From assembly GCA_000806115.1 (NCBI GenBank), contig JWKQ01000002.1, positions 320,815 through 384,814 of the forward strand: a DNA stretch of 64,000 nucleotides, written 5' to 3'. The position numbers were made by a program, and so were the translations under genes. Numbering within the stretch: the first letter of the stretch is position 1; each line of letters begins with the position of its first letter. Under the pieces are notes generated by a model, which was not told the DNA's origin, searched no databases, and saw only the letters and a program-made list of their open reading frames with translations. Positions 53,802-60,515 of this stretch are shown piece by piece. This DNA comes from an archaeon GW2011_AR5. Lineage in GTDB: Archaea; Aenigmatarchaeota; Aenigmatarchaeia; GW2011-AR5.

Positions 53802-54227
53802 TTACTCCGACTCTTCTGATTCGCTGGACGACTCGTCAGTGGATTCCTCGTCAGAAGATTCCATCGAAGACTCGCCTTCATCAGATTCCGAAGATTCTGA
53901 TCCGCCCTTTGCCGGGCCGACTTTCTCGCCAATCGCAAAGCGGCTTGCAACTTCCTTTATTCGGATTCTGCATTCCTCGCCTTTCTTTGCACCGGCTACG
54001 AAGACGATGAAGTTCTCGATTTTCGTGATTCCATCGCCTTTTGCGCCGACGTCAGTTATCTTGACATCGTGCTCTTCGCCGATTTTTATTGGCTTGGGCT
54101 TGTCGTCATTTTCCCTGAAGCGTCCGCCGCCGCCGAAGCCGCCGCCTCCGCGTCCGCCGCCGCCTCTTCCGAAGCCGCCGCCTCCGCGTCCGCCGCCGTC
54201 TCTGTCTCTACGTTCGTACATTCTCAT
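53802..54227 (-). CDS. TRAM-domain RNA-binding protein with RGG and acidic tails
   Basis: 141 residues in three parts. 1-40: RGG/GGGF low-complexity (GGGRGGGGFGRGGGGRGGGG). 41-105: a TRAM domain (IKIGEEHDVKITDVGAKGDG, FIVFVAGAKKGEECRIRI) as in archaeal RNA-chaperone TRAM proteins. 106-141: Ser/Glu/Asp tail (SSESDEGESSMESSDEEST). The TRAM part probably binds structured RNA; the tails look disordered. catatattcc before the start looks like its TATA region. Confidence 0.9.
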   Translation of the reverse strand: MRMYERRDRDGGGRGGGGFGRGGGGRGGGGFGGGGRFRENDDKPKPIKIGEEHDVKITDVGAKGDGITKIENFIVFVAGAKKGEECRIRIKEVASRFAIGEKVGPAKGGSESSESDEGESSMESSDEESTDESSSESEESE

Positions 54228-54434
54228 GCACCTGTTTTTCTAAGGAATATATGTAGGTCTGTTGTTTTGTTATTGTTGGAGTCGACCGTTATTCACATTA
54301 CCCCTTATTTTATTACTGTTAGAAAATAGGCCATCAATGCCGGTACGCCAAATGCGTCTTTACCTTCCATTTACCTTCCTACCCTAACTGTATGATTACT
54401 AAGAAGGAATAAGTATTTAAGCGGTCCGAAAGGA
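54228..54434. other. intergenic region flanking the mobile element
   Basis: 207 bases between the TRAM gene and the element. They include a TATA-like agtatttaagc (54412-54422) followed by AAAGGA at the insertion point. Rejoined to the right flank this gives AAAGGAGG-caaa-ATG, so a promoter plus ribosome site once led into sequence now beyond 58385. Nothing else is recognised. Confidence 0.4.
54427..54434 (+). repeat. target-site duplication, left copy
   Basis: CGAAAGGA directly outside the left terminal repeat; the right copy at 58385-58392 reads CAAAAGGA (7 of 8 identical). An 8-bp duplication is characteristic of IS6-family insertion. Confidence 0.65.
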
Positions 54435-54458
54435 GGCTCTGTTGCGTTGAGTGTTGAT
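54435..54458 (+). repeat. left terminal inverted repeat (outer box)
   Basis: GGCTCTGTTGCG followed by TTGAGTGTTGAT. The core box TTGCGTTGAGTGTTGAT recurs in inverted form at the right end. Confidence 0.8.
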
Positions 54459-54479
54459 TTGTTCGGTTTAAAAGTCATC

Positions 54480-54496
54480 GTTGCGTATGTGTTGAT
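54480..54496 (+). repeat. left subterminal box
   Basis: GTTGCGTATGTGTTGAT, direct repeat of the outer box about 40 bases further in. It differs by one base over 16 from the right inner box (inverted). Likely transposase-binding site. Confidence 0.7.
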
Positions 54497-54631
54497 ATGG
54501 TTGGGATTGGCGAATATTTCAAGGAACGCAAAATGGAGACAATAGGCATCACATTAGCTCTTATATCACTTCTTATCTCGTGCCGAACTCCCTTCGTATT
54601 GCCTTTGGATATGAAGCCAATCCGTCCGTGA
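54497..54631 (+). pseudogene. truncated membrane-protein ORF inside the transposon left end
   Basis: 44 codons opening MVGIGEYFKERKMETIGITL and continuing with a hydrophobic segment ALISLLIS; the frame then runs antisense through the transposase end. A ggtttaaaag box lies about 25 bases before the ATG. The membrane-like start fused to transposase-antisense sequence at about 54573 suggests a gene that lost its 3' part in the same deletion that removed the transposase C-terminus. Confidence 0.35.
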
Positions 54632-55450
54632 TAATTACACTTGGTTTGACCTTTGTTACTTCCTTCACTTTCTGGAATAGTCTTCGTGCATCTCCTATTT
54701 CTCTGCCTTCGCTGATTAGGCTTGCTAAAAGAAATCTGCTGTCAGAATCTATAGCATTCCAGCAATAGACGTATTTGCCTTTCGCTTTGACCATCTGTTC
54801 GTCCACTTCCACATGCCAGAACCTTTCGGCGTGAACTGCTCGGCATAGTTGTTTATCATGCCTGTAAAATGGACTATCCAACGATAGACGCTTGAATGGT
54901 CAATTTCAAAATTATAGAATTGTTTTAAGTGGTTCTTTATCTTCCGTAGGCTTACGCCCTTGAAATACAGGTCTATAGCCAGCGTGATAATTTTGCCTGA
55001 TGCCTTATATTTTCTAAAGTCTTTTTCTGCTACGAATGTCCTTCCGCAAGACCTACAAAGTAGCCTCTGTTTATTCCTTGCCTTTCCATTCTTGACAATT
55101 TTAACAGAAGCGCAGTAAAGGCATTTCTGCGCCTTTGATGGTTCTTCTATTTCAATCGTGTATTGGTGGGCAAGTTGATACTTTAGCTTTAGCCAAAAAC
55201 GAATCGCAAAAATATGCTTACAAGATATACCTCTCTTTTGAAAATCGGGACAAGAGCAAGAGGCTTCTTCCTTCTTTTGCTTTCTCACTATCTTGATGGT
55301 GTATTTTCCATTACAGCTCTGCGAAGGAATAACGAATGTTTCGTTGTCTATTATCTCTGGTTGGTCGCCCTTGCTGATTATGGCGTAACCTCTAATCTGG
55401 CGACCTTCTACATCTTCGGCATCTTTATTGTTTTGGGTTTCTTCTTGCAT
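54573..55450 (-). pseudogene. IS6-like DDE transposase, frameshifted and truncated
   Basis: N-terminal frame (54749-55450): SWIM-type zinc motif (CSCPDFQKRGISCKHI), a four-cysteine zinc ribbon (CLYCASVK...LLCRSCGRTF), and a helix-turn-helix (YFKGVSLRKIKNHL, HSSVYRWIVHF). The DDE domain follows in another frame (54573-54881): first Asp in FWHVEVDEQMVKAKGKYVY, second in VIITDGLASYPKAIRREFG. A one-base shift near 54830 joins them (AEQFT|ERFWHVEVDE). The protein stops just after the second Asp, so the catalytic Glu and C-terminus are missing and it should be inactive. Confidence 0.85.
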
Positions 55451-55509
55451 TTCTTATCACCTTACTTTGTTAGTAATATACTATATAGTAATATACAAAC
55501 AAATACTTA

Positions 55510-55548
55510 AAGCTTACTCACCTAATATATGAGTATAAAAGTAAGCTT
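55510..55548. promoter_or_regulatory. inverted repeat between transposase and zinc-ribbon genes
   Basis: AAGCTTACT (55510) and AGTAAGCTT (55540) are perfect 9-base arms; nested inside are CTCA and TGAG. It lies 9 bases before the ATG at 55558 and overlaps the divergent promoter region of the transposase (two GTAATATAC direct repeats around TATATA at about 55471-55494). A probable operator. Confidence 0.45.
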
Positions 55549-55557
55549 GTGATTTGC

Positions 55558-55734
55558 ATGGACAAGGTAAAAATTACTCTTGAGGGTTACAGATGCGCCC
55601 GTTGTAAATATGAATGGGTGCCAAGGCTTGAGGCATACCCGAAAGTCTGCCCACACTGCAAATCACCTTATTGGGACAAGCCACGCAAAAAGGCTAAAGA
55701 CAGCGGCACAAAGACATTAAAGGATTCAAAATAA
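55558..55734 (+). CDS. small zinc-ribbon protein (rubredoxin-like knuckles)
   Basis: 58 residues from ATG 55558 (MDKVKITLEGYRCARCKYEW). Two zinc knuckles CARCKYEWVPR and CPHCKSPYWDKPRK, then a basic tail. Such CxxCxxxWxPR...CPxCxSPYWdxPRk proteins are common small proteins of archaeal and bacterial mobile or toxin-antitoxin-rich regions; the role is unknown, possibly DNA/RNA binding. The upstream inverted repeat suggests regulation. Confidence 0.75.
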   Translation: MDKVKITLEGYRCARCKYEWVPRLEAYPKVCPHCKSPYWDKPRKKAKDSGTKTLKDSK

Positions 55735-55753
55735 AGAACATATAATTGTAATT

Positions 55754-55852
55754 GGCAGAGGATTAGTGTCCATCCGCTTGCAGTTCCTACGACAAACTTG
55801 CCGACTGCAAGAATAACATCCTCCCTATCGGGTGGCACGGGCGACCTCTGCC
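55754..55852 (+). ncRNA. candidate structured RNA inside the transposon
   Basis: A 99-base segment folds into three nested helices: P1 GGCAGAGG/CCTCTGCC (8 bp); P2 GTG(T)CCATCCG/CGGGTGGCAC (10 bp, one bulged T, one wobble); P3 CTTGCAGT/ACTGCAAG (8 bp) closing a 19-base loop. A 17-base unpaired strand lies between P3 and P2. No coding frame on the plus strand covers it. The strand of transcription and the function are unknown; it matches no RNA family I recognise. Confidence 0.5.
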
Positions 55853-55940
55853 ACTTATTTCTATCTCTACAAAAGCTTATAAAATGATATAAAATGATAT
55901 TTAATCTGAAAACTACGCTTCTCGTCACGCATAAACACTA

Positions 55941-56006
55941 AACGATATAACGATAAATTATATTCCATTTCTCGTTTCACTTTTTGACATAACGATAAAA
56001 CGATAA
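55941..56006 (+). promoter_or_regulatory. tandem AACGATAW repeats (two pairs)
   Basis: AACGATAT-AACGATAA at 55941 and AACGATAA-AACGATAA at 55991: four copies of an octamer, each pair spaced by exactly 8 bases and the pairs 50 bases apart. They end about 32 bases before the start of the winged-helix gene. This looks like an operator, most simply for the winged-helix protein itself. Confidence 0.55.
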
Positions 56007-56037
56007 CCTTAAGAAGTATTCTAAATATGATTTAACT

Positions 56038-56799
56038 ATGCCACGAACAAAAGGCAGTAAGAGCAAATCTGGGGTGCCAATGAAGGGACTCCAAGAAGCT
56101 GTAGTATTGACTAAGATGGCTTACGATAAGCATGGAGACAAATCTATGTCTTTCAGTGAGATAGCCGAATCAATGAAACTACCAAAGGGAATAAGCACGC
56201 CTATTATGGGTGCATTAAGTGAGTATGGATTAGTTGAAAAATCAGATTTAGGATGGCGAATAAGCGCAGAAGGGAAAAATGCAATTTTTGGGGATATTGA
56301 CGCTACCAGAAAATGCTTTACAAAGATTTCATTATTTGCTGATTTATACCATAGATTTGGCAGTAAGGCAGTGACATCTGGAATAATAGAGACTTATCTC
56401 AGAGGCAAATATAGGAAAGGTGAAAATGTAGCACTTATTATCAAACGCTTTTCAGAGGGTTTAGACTACGTTAAAGGTCTTGAAAGCGGACACACAATTT
56501 CAGGTAATGTAGTAATTGGTACAGAACTTAACTATTCTCGTGATATTGCACTGCTTAAACTGAAATACGCTTTAGACCCGCCTACCAGAGATGAAATTCA
56601 TAAATTAATTGATATTGTAGAACACGAACTAAAGAATGAGGATTCGTCTATAGTAAAATTAATTAAAAGCATCAAAGAAAATAAAGATAAAAAAGAAGTT
56701 GCAAAGGTTTTGTTTGATAATTTAATTTCAATTCTTGGTGACAAATATCCTTTCCTAATAACAGAGACAAATACAGCAAAAAATGAAGATGAGGGTTAG
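56038..56799 (+). CDS. winged-helix protein of the restriction-modification module
   Basis: 253 residues. A basic start (PRTKGSKSKSG) is followed by a winged helix (about 20-75: KSMSFSEIAESMKLPKGISTPIMGALSEYGLVEKSDLGWRISAEGK) and a helical C-terminal region with no recognised domain. It precedes the methyltransferase by 3 bases, so the two form an operon. A control (C-protein-like) role is likely: tandem octamers sit right upstream. An alternative is a specificity or partner subunit. No family name can be given. Confidence 0.65.
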   Translation: MPRTKGSKSKSGVPMKGLQEAVVLTKMAYDKHGDKSMSFSEIAESMKLPKGISTPIMGALSEYGLVEKSDLGWRISAEGKNAIFGDIDATRKCFTKISLFADLYHRFGSKAVTSGIIETYLRGKYRKGENVALIIKRFSEGLDYVKGLESGHTISGNVVIGTELNYSRDIALLKLKYALDPPTRDEIHKLIDIVEHELKNEDSSIVKLIKSIKENKDKKEVAKVLFDNLISILGDKYPFLITETNTAKNEDEG

Positions 56800-56802
56800 T
56801 AA

Positions 56803-57723
56803 ATGAAAACAGAACAAAAACGTAAGTCAGAAGGGACACAAACAAGTTCGTTTGGCGTAGGTGGCAGATTCAACCACGACTCATCAAAATTCTATTCAAG
56901 TAAAATGTATTCCAAAATTGATAGTTCCGTTATGATTGCAGAAAAAGAAAATGCAATAGATTCTGCTATTCTTGACAAAATACTTTGTAAATCAAGTAAT
57001 AACATGAAAGAATTGCCTGATAACAGCATTCATTTGATGGTCACTTCACCTCCTTACAATGTAGGAAAAGAATATGACAAAGACTTGTCATTGGATGAAT
57101 ATAGAGAATTGTTAAAGTCGGTATTCAAGGAAGTATATCGTGTCTTAGCGATTGGCGGCAGGGCTTGTATTAATGTTGCTAACCTTGGCAGAAAACCTTA
57201 CATTCCATTACATAGCTTCATAATCGAAGATATGACAAAAATTGGCTTCTTTATGCGTGGCGAAATAATTTGGAATAAGGGCTCAAGTGCAAGTCCTTCA
57301 ACCGCGTGGGGTAGTTGGATGTCAGCAAAGAACCCTACACTTCGTGATGTACACGAATATATATTGGTATTCTCAAAGGGAAACAACGGACGATTTAATT
57401 CGGATACAAAAGAAAGTACAATAACAAAGGATGAGTTTATGGAGCTTACAAAAAGTGTCTGGCATTTTCAAGCGGTTCAGGCACGTTCTATTGGACATCC
57501 CGCACCATTTCCATTAGAACTACCACTAAGACTAATCAAACTATACACATTCAAAGGGGATGTTGTGTTAGACCCCTTTATGGGAAGTGGACAAACTGCA
57601 ATAGCCGCCAAGAAATTAGGACGTAGGTATATAGGCTACGATATAAGTAAAGAATATTGTAAACTTGCGGAAGATAGAATCAAAAATGAATTTGCTCAAA
57701 AAACCCTCAAGAATGCTACATGA
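56803..57723 (+). CDS. type II DNA methyltransferase, beta class (N4-cytosine or N6-adenine)
   Basis: 306 residues. Motif IV TSPPYNVGKEY (about 82-92) comes before the SAM-binding motif I DPFMGSGQTAIAAKKLG (about 252-268), so it is a beta-class amino-methyltransferase. TSPPY rather than DPPY favours N4-methylcytosine. WNKGSSASPSTAWGSWMSA and RSIGHPAPFPLELP are typical of the type II group. It protects DNA against the endonuclease encoded convergently, with 8 bases of overlap at the 3' ends. About 60 N-terminal residues are extra and low-complexity. Confidence 0.93.
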   Translation: MKTEQKRKSEGTQTSSFGVGGRFNHDSSKFYSSKMYSKIDSSVMIAEKENAIDSAILDKILCKSSNNMKELPDNSIHLMVTSPPYNVGKEYDKDLSLDEYRELLKSVFKEVYRVLAIGGRACINVANLGRKPYIPLHSFIIEDMTKIGFFMRGEIIWNKGSSASPSTAWGSWMSAKNPTLRDVHEYILVFSKGNNGRFNSDTKESTITKDEFMELTKSVWHFQAVQARSIGHPAPFPLELPLRLIKLYTFKGDVVLDPFMGSGQTAIAAKKLGRRYIGYDISKEYCKLAEDRIKNEFAQKTLKNAT

Positions 57724-58303
57724 GTGGTTTTACTTTATTTAGAAATTCCTGTAATTCTTTTGGATTTGTAATGTCTATAAACTTATCAACAATATCACCT
57801 TCTGCCAAATTCATCATACATTCAGCATTTCCATTTTTGGGTTTGACATTTGTTACTATGTAAAATGGTGTTTTTGGAAAAACACGTTTGAATTGGTATG
57901 CTTGTGAAATAGCCTTTTTCATGGTATCCGTTCTCTTTAACGCTGGTCTGGGAAGGCGGATTCCATCAACTACTTCCGCAGAACCTTTAGCCTCTATGCC
58001 ACACAAAAGTTTTCCATTCTTCATAATGCCAAAATCAAGAGCCCCGCTTCCAAGCATGCAAGCCTTCTTGATTGGAACACATTTAGAAAATTTAACTTTG
58101 TATTTGTGTTCCATCAGGTAATCAAAAAGAAGCTCAAACATATCACCCGTCTTTTTGGCTCTTGACTGGAATCCGAGATTTTTGCCCAATTTGACAAGAA
58201 GGTCTGAAAAACACTTTTCTACAAACGCTTTAACATCAGAATCACTTTTTACAAGTCCAATATTTGATTCAAGAATAGACTTATAGGGTTCTGGAATTGG
58301 CAT
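57716..58303 (-). CDS. type II restriction endonuclease, PD-(D/E)XK fold
   Basis: 195 residues. The catalytic core is GALDFGIMKNGKLLCGIEAKGSAEV (about 89-113): the Asp in ALDFG and the ExK motif in GIEAKG form a PD-(D/E)XK site, preceded by a helical bundle containing FELLFDYLMEHKYKVKF. YIVTNVKPKNG is a plausible following strand. Its small size and position next to a methyltransferase make it the likely cognate restriction enzyme. The recognition sequence cannot be read; the genes being convergent implies separate promoters. Confidence 0.85.
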   Translation of the reverse strand: MPIPEPYKSILESNIGLVKSDSDVKAFVEKCFSDLLVKLGKNLGFQSRAKKTGDMFELLFDYLMEHKYKVKFSKCVPIKKACMLGSGALDFGIMKNGKLLCGIEAKGSAEVVDGIRLPRPALKRTDTMKKAISQAYQFKRVFPKTPFYIVTNVKPKNGNAECMMNLAEGDIVDKFIDITNPKELQEFLNKVKPLM

Positions 58304-58334
58304 TAAATAACATTGATTTTAGCCCTTTTAAACC

Positions 58335-58353
58335 ATCAACACTTACGCAACAA
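58335..58353 (-). repeat. right subterminal box
   Basis: Reverse complement reads TTGTTGCGTAAGTGTTGAT, the inner copy at the right end, matching the left inner box with one mismatch over 16. Confidence 0.7.
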
Positions 58354-58360
58354 TTATTTT

Positions 58361-58384
58361 ATCAACACTTCATGCAACAAAGCC
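58361..58384 (-). repeat. right terminal inverted repeat (outer box)
   Basis: Reverse complement starts GGCTTTGTTGCA and continues TGAAGTGTTGAT; 20 of 24 bases match the left end. Confidence 0.8.
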
Positions 58385-58392
58385 CAAAAGGA
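58385..58392 (+). repeat. target-site duplication, right copy
   Basis: CAAAAGGA against CGAAAGGA on the left. It is part of AAAAGGAGG, a Shine-Dalgarno-like sequence 4 bases before an ATG (58399). Confidence 0.6.
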
Positions 58393-58447: not shown

Positions 58448-59077
58448 TCATTTGAATATCTCGCCTGTCTCTTCCGACCACCACACCAGGTCAAGGTGCG
58501 CCATTGGTATCCCGGCTTGCGAGGCAAAGCGTTTCATTTTCTCTTCTATCTCAAGATATTTCTTCTCTGTCAGGGATTTGGGCGTCTCGGGAATCACTTC
58601 ATTGCGGACTAAATGCTTGAGGATGTGCCTGTCTAGAATTGCTATATCATCGCCGAATCCTATGTTTCTCAGGAAATGCGAAGCTTCTTTCAGCCCGAAG
58701 CCTTTCACGTTCTTTACGAGCCAATCGCGCATTTCTGTGGGATTGCCGGATTCTTCCAGCCTTTTTTTCACGCTAAGTCCGCCTTCCCCATTCGTGAAGA
58801 GTTTTCTCGCTTCCACGATGTACTGCGACTTGTTGTTGTTGAAGCGGATTGACGCCATCCACGGCTTCAGCTGTTCCGCGCTTCCCGTGAGGAGCAGGTT
58901 CTTTTCTTTCAGTTTGTCGATGACTTTCGCCGCGCTCTTCGCCTTGGTTTGCGGCGTCATCAGGCAGAAGCAGAGTTCCTCGAATATCTTCTCGTCGCTT
59001 TCGCCGTACACGTTTTTGAAATCCCGGAGCCGCTGTTCTATCGCCGGACGTTTTGCTTCGTAAGCTTCAATCATCAT
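58448..59077 (-). CDS. ogg: N-glycosylase/DNA lyase (8-oxoguanine DNA glycosylase, Ogg2 type)
   Basis: 209 residues from ATG 59077 (MMIEAYEAKRPAIEQRLRDF). Helix-hairpin-helix-GPD fold: LCFCLMTPQTKAKSAAKVIDKL, hairpin with catalytic lysine VKGFGLKEASHFLRNIG and the aspartate in IAILDRHILKHLV. The size and LVWWSEETGEIFK end fit archaeal Ogg2, which excises 8-oxoguanine and cuts the AP site. A TATA-like atttaaat about 20 bases upstream supports this start; longer frames overlap purA. Confidence 0.93.
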   Translation of the reverse strand: MMIEAYEAKRPAIEQRLRDFKNVYGESDEKIFEELCFCLMTPQTKAKSAAKVIDKLKEKNLLLTGSAEQLKPWMASIRFNNNKSQYIVEARKLFTNGEGGLSVKKRLEESGNPTEMRDWLVKNVKGFGLKEASHFLRNIGFGDDIAILDRHILKHLVRNEVIPETPKSLTEKKYLEIEEKMKRFASQAGIPMAHLDLVWWSEETGEIFK

Positions 59078-59093
59078 GAGAATTTGGACGGAA

Positions 59094-59102
59094 AATTTAA
59101 AT
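59094..59102 (-). promoter_or_regulatory. TATA-like promoter of ogg
   Basis: On the minus strand gatttaaat about 20-25 bases before ATG 59077, giving near-leaderless spacing. Confidence 0.45.
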
Positions 59103-59147
59103 CTAAGAATTCCGCTGTTTTTAGGCAGTGGTTCTTCACAAGACAAT

Positions 59148-60515
59148 CTACTCTGAGAAAGGTTGCATGAAAATCGTTTCATGGCTTTCCGGGCCTGTTG
59201 AAACTATCCCGACCGGAACTACGTCGTTCCAGACGTTCACGATTTCCTTTGCGCTTTCCGACAGGTCTGCATAGTTTTGGACGCCTCTGGTGGTTTTCAT
59301 GGAACCCCTTACCCTTCTTCCAAAAACCGGCGTGTAATTTCCGTAATCCACGCCCCTGAATTCTTCTACGTCGCGCCCGTCCATTTCGTAGCCTGTTATG
59401 AATGGAATCTCGGGAACAAAATCAGAGACGTCTATCTTGGTGAGTGCCAGCCAGTCGATGCCGTTTACCATCGAGGCGTATTTTATCAGCGGGACGTCGG
59501 GCCATGCGACCCTTCGGGGTCTCCCCGTTGACGCCCCGAATTCATCGCCCTCGTCGCGGTGGTATTTTCCCACTTCAGCATCGTTTGCATTTCCTGACAT
59601 GACTTTCTCCCTGAGACGCTCGAACTCCGCCGGCGTGAGGCGCTTGTCGCCTTTGATCGACTGTTCCGTTCCAAGTTCTCCCAGAAGAGGGCCTCCGCCG
59701 ACGCGCGTCAGGTATCCCGCTTTCATCACGCCTACCACTTCATTGACTGCGGAAGAAGGTATCCCCAAGCCGGTTGCAACGCCGCCCGAGATGGTTCGCG
59801 AGGATGTTACATAGGGGCGCGTTCCCAGATCAAGGTCGAGAAAAGTGCCCTGCGCGCCTTCAAACAGCATCGGCGACCTTCCCAGTTCCCTGTTAAGATA
59901 ATGGACGGTGTCTCGTACATGAGGGTTGAGTTCCCTGAACAGAGCCGCATAGTCTTCGGCAACTTTTGCGGAATCTATCGGAGGTTCGCCCGCCCTTTCC
60001 AGTCTTTCTGAAACCATGAACTCCTCGTCAAGGTTTTTCAGGAGCCTCTGAATATCTCCGGCCGGCCTGTAGAAATCCGATACGAACACTCCGACGCGCG
60101 CCGCATTTGTCATGTAAGCGGGCCCGATTCCCCTGCCGGTTGTTCCTATTTCTCTTGCCGCGGGACTCAGCCTTTCCATGGCTTTCTCGTAAGGCGTGAT
60201 TACTTTCGCGCTGTCCGAGATGACCAGCCTGTCTGTGCCTATCCCGGCGCTTCTTACGTGCGAAATCTCATCGAGCAGAAGCGAAGGGTCTATAACGACG
60301 CCGTTCCCGATTACGCACGTGACGCCCCGATGGCTTATTGCGGACGGGATGACGTGAAGTATGAGTTTCTTTCCATGATAGTAAGTCGTGTGGCCGGCGT
60401 TGGGGCCGCCGTTGTACCTTGCAACTATTTTGTAGCCGTGGTCGACAAAGTAGTCTATGATTTTCCCTTTTCCCTCGTCGCCCCACTGGGCTCCTATTAC
60501 TGCAACGTTTTTCAT
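59148..60515 (-). CDS. purA: adenylosuccinate synthetase
   Basis: 455 residues, full length like bacterial enzymes and longer than the compact archaeal form (about 340). VAVIGAQWGDEGKGKIIDYF is the GTP/IMP-binding start, with GPNAGHTTYYHGKKLILHVIPS, TTGRGIGPAYMTNAARVGV, LFEGAQGTFLDLDLGTRPYVT and the late arginine loop GSMKTTRGVQNYADL. It forms adenylosuccinate from IMP on the way to AMP. It follows guaB by 6 bases, so both IMP branch enzymes are in one operon. Confidence 0.96.
   Translation of the reverse strand: MKNVAVIGAQWGDEGKGKIIDYFVDHGYKIVARYNGGPNAGHTTYYHGKKLILHVIPSAISHRGVTCVIGNGVVIDPSLLLDEISHVRSAGIGTDRLVISDSAKVITPYEKAMERLSPAAREIGTTGRGIGPAYMTNAARVGVFVSDFYRPAGDIQRLLKNLDEEFMVSERLERAGEPPIDSAKVAEDYAALFRELNPHVRDTVHYLNRELGRSPMLFEGAQGTFLDLDLGTRPYVTSSRTISGGVATGLGIPSSAVNEVVGVMKAGYLTRVGGGPLLGELGTEQSIKGDKRLTPAEFERLREKVMSGNANDAEVGKYHRDEGDEFGASTGRPRRVAWPDVPLIKYASMVNGIDWLALTKIDVSDFVPEIPFITGYEMDGRDVEEFRGVDYGNYTPVFGRRVRGSMKTTRGVQNYADLSESAKEIVNVWNDVVPVGIVSTGPESHETIFMQPFSE

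Follow-up and report, generated by a model that had tools for sequence, protein, structure and literature searches.

A decayed archaeal IS6-like unit transposon whose passenger is a probable type II restriction-modification cassette

Insertion sequences (ISs) of the IS6 family are mostly 700 to 890 bp long, reach up to 1.76 kb, and have terminal repeats that start with GG and contain a cTGTt motif (PMC7986276). The classical route by which these elements move other genes is the pseudo-compound transposon, in which the cargo lies between two directly repeated IS copies, and the only passenger carrier named in the family review is ISDsp3, which has one hypothetical gene (PMC7986276). The literature on the mobility of restriction-modification (R-M) systems places them in composite transposons or links them to IS movement, and composites, plasmids, and long duplications have so far been the main basis for inferring jumps of type II R-M systems from genome to genome. 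Here, we examined a 64,000-nucleotide stretch of the archaeon GW2011_AR5 (the window; contig JWKQ01000002.1, positions 320,815 to 384,814) and, specifically, an element at window positions 54435 to 58384. Judged by its gene content and the small size of its genome, the archaeon is probably DPANN-like. The results indicated that the element was a decayed archaeal IS6-like unit transposon that had delivered a probable type II R-M cassette as a passenger, a reading to which we assigned a probability of about 0.87. A literature search of open-licence full texts, in which absence is not proof, found no unit transposon of the IS6 type that carries R-M genes.

Among described systems, the archaeal IS6-like elements (clade h, zinc finger) were alike in their IS240/IS6 DDE domain, GG...TGTTGC ends, and 8-bp duplications, and in having an extra N-terminal zinc module, as in longer family members. 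The window element differed from them in its 3.95-kb length, in carrying passenger genes, in its SWIM domain and the two repeats at each end, and in having a dead transposase. As in a transporter IS, one pair of ends surrounded the transposase and genes unrelated to transposition; however, window-type elements had an IS6-like transposase, and their cargo was repeatedly methyltransferase or restriction genes that were exchanged between near-identical chassis. A composite or pseudo-compound transposon has two ISs and four ends, the copies being in direct repeat in the case of IS6, whereas this genome held two ends, which were inverted. In the IS-linked R-M movement described by Takahashi et al. 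(2011) and for the R-M system in Tn1999.7, the mobile element and the R-M genes likewise collaborate in spread, with retention by post-segregational killing. Those systems are composites, IS-copy cointegrates, or insertions into a composite transposon, whereas the R-M genes of the window lay between a single element's own ends. As for the cargo, it shared with ThaI-type R-M systems (PF15514, CGCG) a 72 to 76% identical methyltransferase and the convergent layout, but its endonuclease gene was unrelated in sequence to ThaI and a winged-helix gene was added.

By its sequence features, the element belonged to the IS6 family in the broad ISfinder sense, as a passenger-carrying IS. Both ends (GGCTCTGTTGC and GGCTTTGTTGC) started with GG and carried the cTGTt motif, and the length of 3,950 bp, with four passenger genes, lay outside the usual 700 to 890 bp. 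The best matches of the DDE part of the window fragments were NF033587 (8e-20) and PF13610 (8e-16); the fragments fell under the IS6 whole-protein cut-off because the transposase was broken. Four intact relatives scored above the NCBI equivalog cut-off of 125 bits (131.4, 136.8, 125.9, and 125.2), and the transposases of the related elements in genomes G021 (112.6) and G020:C48 (71.9) scored below it. A stricter IS6/IS26 definition leaves out archaeal and long elements and gives the signature E-DH---K for bacterial members (PMC6807381). The corresponding segment was missing in the window and read ERYHGTxRER in relatives, and this definition would exclude the group. Thus, the IS6 assignment made in an earlier note on the window held in the broad sense and would not hold in the strict one.

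That note had also proposed the element itself, from the letters of the window, and its interval and end match were borne out. The left IS6-type terminal inverted repeat (GGCTCTGTTGCGTTGAGTGTTGAT) occupied positions 54435 to 54458 on the plus strand, and the right one (GGCTTTGTTGCATGAAGTGTTGAT, read inward from 58384 to 58361) occupied positions 58361 to 58384 on the minus strand. The two were alike at 20 of 24 bases in inverted orientation. The pattern GGCxCTGTTGC, claimed for both, was exact at the left end and had one mismatch at the right end. Taken alone, the 20/24 match was weak because, of eight windows simulated with matching dinucleotide statistics, three contained at least one pair that was at least as good at a spacing of 1.5 to 6 kb.

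We judged the ends to be real because of the inner repeats, the flanks, a blind scan, the uniqueness of the pair, the near-identical ends of other elements in the family that have exact duplications, and the low G+C content. Specifically, an inner inverted pair at positions 54471 to 54496 (plus strand, AAAGTCATCGTTGCGTATGTGTTGAT) and 58335 to 58360 (minus strand) was alike at 22 of 26 bases, had the TTGCGTANGTGTTGAT motif in common with the outer pair, and may provide a second transposase-binding-like site. All four inverted-pair hits of at least 20/24 in the window came from these outer and inner pairs. The flanking sequences, CGAAAGGA at positions 54427 to 54434 and CAAAAGGA at positions 58385 to 58392 (neither with a strand), agreed at seven of eight bases, in keeping with the 8-bp target duplication that had been called probable. 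The same interval was the top result (20/24 plus 7/8; the runner-up had 12/24) of a blind search for inverted ends that start with GG and have a flanking duplication. In the 858-kb assembly, this pair comprised the only two such ends, inverted to each other and sharing one duplication, as expected from the proposal that one pair of ends encloses everything in the style of a unit transposon. In addition, the G+C content was 37.2% in the element versus 50.0% in the rest of the window, where none of the other sampled 3,950-bp stretches fell under 46%.

The transposase, previously described as degraded, was a pseudogene at positions 54573 to 55450 on the minus strand. Profile matches identified an IS6/IS240 DDE domain and an IS1/IS1595-type zinc ribbon, with a SWIM domain at the N terminus. 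A frameshift near 54.815 kb split the gene into open reading frames (ORFs) at 55450 to 54749 and 54881 to 54573, and the product was shorter at the C terminus, by about 76 residues, than an intact 374-amino-acid (aa) protein in genome G114, the third catalytic residue being among those lost. The gene was thus not only degraded; with the frameshift and the missing residue, the transposase was dead.

Ends similar to the right-end sequence of the window element were present in three other genomes of the family (G017, G006, and G002). The G017 element was 960 bp long, had an exact 8-bp duplication (GCATTCTG), and contained an NYN-domain gene as its sole gene; it had no transposase, so it must have been mobilised in trans. 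In G006, a short element of 1,177 bp had an 8/8 duplication (ATAATAGC), two small genes, and part of an IS6-like transposase whose C terminus lay about 40 bp from the right end. The G006 element ties the window-type end sequence both to 8-bp duplications and to a transposase of the IS6-like type. The single such end in G002 was at a contig edge.

When 156 genomes of the phylum were searched with the DDE piece and the hits were compared with the positions of all PF01555 methyltransferases, 23 IS6-like transposase loci were found, and six of them lay within 3 kb of a strong methyltransferase. About 0.1 such loci were expected, an estimate from average genome density. All six (the window, G021, G006, G026, G120, and G020:C48) were bounded by matching ends; the latter five were sister elements with METHYLTRANSFERASE cargo. 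The G021 element (L063:263-4111) had ends alike at 24 of 24 bases, the duplication GGTGTGAA (8/8), an intact 315-aa transposase, and a winged-helix gene 33% identical to that of the window. Ends alike at 22 of 24 bases and 8/8 duplications were also found for the larger G006 element (L050:7435-10960; TAATATTT; intact 300-aa transposase) and the G026 element (L132:3554-6847; AAAAAACC), so exact 8-bp duplications marked three of the six. Counting the G017 element and both G006 elements, five siblings had 8/8 duplications, against 7/8 in the window. The 8.3-kb G120 element (L048:5171-13465) had GGTTCTGTTAAG ends, a 9-bp duplication (ATCAAACCG), and a BglII-type endonuclease (PF09195, 8e-24). The G020:C48 element (L054:2600-5239) had TGCATTGTTGC ends, a 9-bp duplication at 8/9, an intact transposase, a zinc ribbon, a methyltransferase, and an endonuclease (PADLOC REase_II, 9e-52). 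The search for relatives with an intact transposase that the earlier note had called for was thus answered by G021, G006, G020:C48, and G120, which carry methyltransferase cargo inside matching IS6-type ends.

The cargo of these elements was exchanged between chassis. The G021 and G026 transposases were 88% identical and their ends were alike at 22 to 24 of 24 bases, but DNA similarity was limited to the transposase and ends, and the methyltransferases were about 28% identical over half their length. Near-identical transposases with unrelated methyltransferases mean that the cassette was exchanged. All other pairs of element methyltransferases were 20 to 34% identical. Of the other transposase loci, many (including G114, G040, G008:C3, G018, G062, G015, and G025) had ends that could not be placed; the fraction of elements that carry R-M cargo is therefore a minimum, and its denominator is uncertain.

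The window element lay between two host genes, both on the minus strand, that served as markers of the empty site in relatives: a TRAM-domain protein gene (positions 53802 to 54227), the leader of which was strongly conserved, and an Ogg/HhH 8-oxoguanine DNA glycosylase gene (positions 58448 to 59182). The two genes were adjacent and the element was absent in the family genomes that had both (G002, G001, G010, G012, and G017). In G002, which belongs to the same genus, the spacer was homologous on the TRAM side and contained neither the IS nor the R-M genes, which supplied the empty site that had been sought in a close relative. No relative with a solo IS (ends within about 1.2 kb) or with the R-M genes alone at this site was found among 19 family genomes. 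The interval at 54228 to 54434 and the corresponding spacer of relatives (L065, L067, and L068) form a variable gene-gain site. The spacer between the glycosylase and TRAM genes contained a different single ORF in each of G001, G003, and G010, and it was empty in G002.

The cargo had been described as a complete R-M system made up of winged-helix, methyltransferase, and endonuclease genes. These genes were present as described, and a 61-aa zinc-ribbon gene (positions 55549 to 55734, plus strand) had not been listed. The winged-helix-like protein (253 aa; 56038 to 56799, plus strand) was the one with a counterpart in the G021 transposon, and the methyltransferase (56803 to 57723, plus strand) was a beta-class N4/N6 DNA methyltransferase with a TSPPY motif and a clear match to PF01555 (3e-52), as a type II R-M system requires. 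Completeness held less firmly for the convergent gene at 57716 to 58303 (minus strand), an orphan of 195 aa whose product is a probable restriction endonuclease on the basis of motif and position. Its motif, ALDF followed by 13 aa and EAK (D-x13-E-A-K), is of the PD-(D/E)xK type. The closest methyltransferases, in G008 (76% identical) and G020:C13 (72% identical), were each paired with a ThaI endonuclease (PF15514; 3e-67 and 5e-77, respectively), and the 195-aa gene held the same convergent place as ThaI. From these homologues, CGCG specificity would be predicted for the window system.

Several observations weighed against our interpretation. The target duplication was 7/8 rather than exact, and the G002 spacer had diverged on the right, so the empty-site junction could not be aligned there base by base. 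Methyltransferases and transposases both accumulate in variable islands, so part of their association is to be expected. The endonuclease is without a family match, a homologue in the phylum, plasmids, or phages, or a usable structure model: the 195-aa gene had no Pfam, NCBIfam, PADLOC, or PDB match, its protein had no homologues in the 156 genomes, viral contigs, plasmids, or phages, and a single-sequence AlphaFold2 model had a pLDDT of 48.6 and returned noise in a PDB fold search. Finally, CGCG was not depleted in the window (observed/expected, 1.09), which points to a system that is young here, inactive, or of another specificity.

The last two observations would fit a transposon of the kind described whose cargo was a solitary regulatory methyltransferase plus an unrelated convergent gene rather than a restriction system, as would the finding that some genomes have homologous methyltransferases with no recognisable endonuclease next to them. 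We considered this unlikely. The 195-aa gene sits in ThaI's position next to a methyltransferase of the ThaI-paired type, its D-x13-E-A-K motif had beta-beta-alpha spacing in the low-confidence model, and the siblings in G020 and G120 had recognised endonucleases in the same position. Genes at the equivalent position in G021 and G006 were unrecognised endonuclease candidates; in G026, no convincing one was present.

It was far less probable that the R-M genes had arrived by another route and that a solo IS6-like element had inserted beside them, the right end being a coincidence. Several routes of R-M movement are known (PMC3031569), and ThaI with a 68% identical methyltransferase also occurred in the absence of an IS6 transposase (L079), so that this cassette either predates the vehicle or is independent of it. 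Nevertheless, the R-M genes of the window lay inside matched terminal and inner repeats with one duplication, the empty site lacked both the IS and the R-M genes, and the two closest methyltransferase homologues were themselves beside IS6-type ends; at these ThaI loci (G008 and G020:C13), right ends were found and left ends were searched for and not found. The idea that each end was left by an IS insertion of its own, so that a collapsed composite or pseudo-compound IS6 transposon flanks the R-M locus by chance, was rejected as largely refuted and hardly credible: it accords with the classical direct-repeat arrangement of IS6 cargo and with the near-chance level of the 20/24 match in a window-wide search, but the genome held one inverted pair of ends instead of four ends, the single transposase remnant lay at one end only, one duplication spanned the whole element, and the same one-pair architecture recurred with exact duplications in G021, G006, and G026. 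The earlier note had named independent insertions as one finding that would undo its view of an IS6-linked R-M system; that view was supported instead, and siblings carried different methyltransferase cassettes in the same element type.

In our reading, the unit transposon inserted between the glycosylase gene and the TRAM gene promoter and left the 8-bp duplication. The DDE transposase presumably recognised both ends, each with its pair of repeats, and mobilised the whole interval, probably through copy-in cointegrate formation and then recombination between two element copies, by analogy with IS26. Since then, the transposase has suffered a frameshift and the loss of its third catalytic residue, so transposition in cis is over. 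By analogy with other R-M systems in the literature, the R-M genes may now be kept by selection for defence or post-segregational killing.

Within the phylum, this group of elements is one transposon chassis with interchangeable defence-type cassettes, most often a methyltransferase or R-M cassette, and selfish defence genes appear to have moved repeatedly by this means. Of greater interest than the one decayed copy is the set of sister transposons with exchanged cassettes. We lean slightly toward the broader view that these are a distinct lineage of IS6-like unit transposons in the phylum that serve as dedicated type II R-M vehicles: their standard cargo would be an exchangeable R-M or selfish-defence cassette, chassis and cassette would recombine freely, and R-M addiction would offset the single copy per genome. 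The elements described here are unit transposons, in part with exact ends and duplications. Since the methyltransferase cassette differs between chassis that are nearly identical, a direct test of how transposase and addictive cassette are linked becomes possible. IS6 elements, which are best known for the spread of antibiotic resistance as pseudo-compound transposons, are thereby extended to true passenger-carrying transposons in archaea.

The zinc-ribbon gene recurred just upstream of methyltransferase genes. In at least six genomes (the window gene; L055:2100-2270; L054:3626-3769; L154:7892-8041; L155:7293-7436; and L153:7255-7404), a zinc ribbon of 47 to 61 aa (CxxCxHxW..R..PxVCPxCKSPYW) was encoded immediately upstream of a DNA methyltransferase, with or without a transposase, and these methyltransferases differed widely. 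A tie to the transposase was considered, but the occurrence of the zinc ribbon followed that of methyltransferases more closely, and the protein is a candidate R-M-linked regulator. The divergent intergenic region between the transposase and zinc-ribbon genes (positions 55451 to 55548, no strand) was 75% identical in an element of G007 (L059:6389-10274). Between 18-bp ends (GGGCTTTGTTTAAGAAGT), this element had an IS5-type (DDE_Tnp_1) transposase, a winged-helix gene, and a 356-aa gene of unknown function; its SWIM head, zinc ribbon, and divergent promoter region were the ones seen in the IS6-type element of the window. These are modules shared between elements of different transposase families.

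Other cargo was seen as well. A trypsin-like protease gene (L050:9948-10901) was extra cargo of the G006 methyltransferase transposon. A 2.9-kb element in G046 (L046:7913-10789) had an intact SWIM-IS6 transposase, an exact duplication (GAAAAACG), and a zinc-ribbon protein with a weak match, under the cut-off, to Lar restriction-alleviation proteins (PF14354, 4.6e-5). Across the window, GATC (0.34) and GGCC (0.36) were strongly depleted relative to second-order expectation, and CGCG was not; the pattern suggests a past of other restriction activities.

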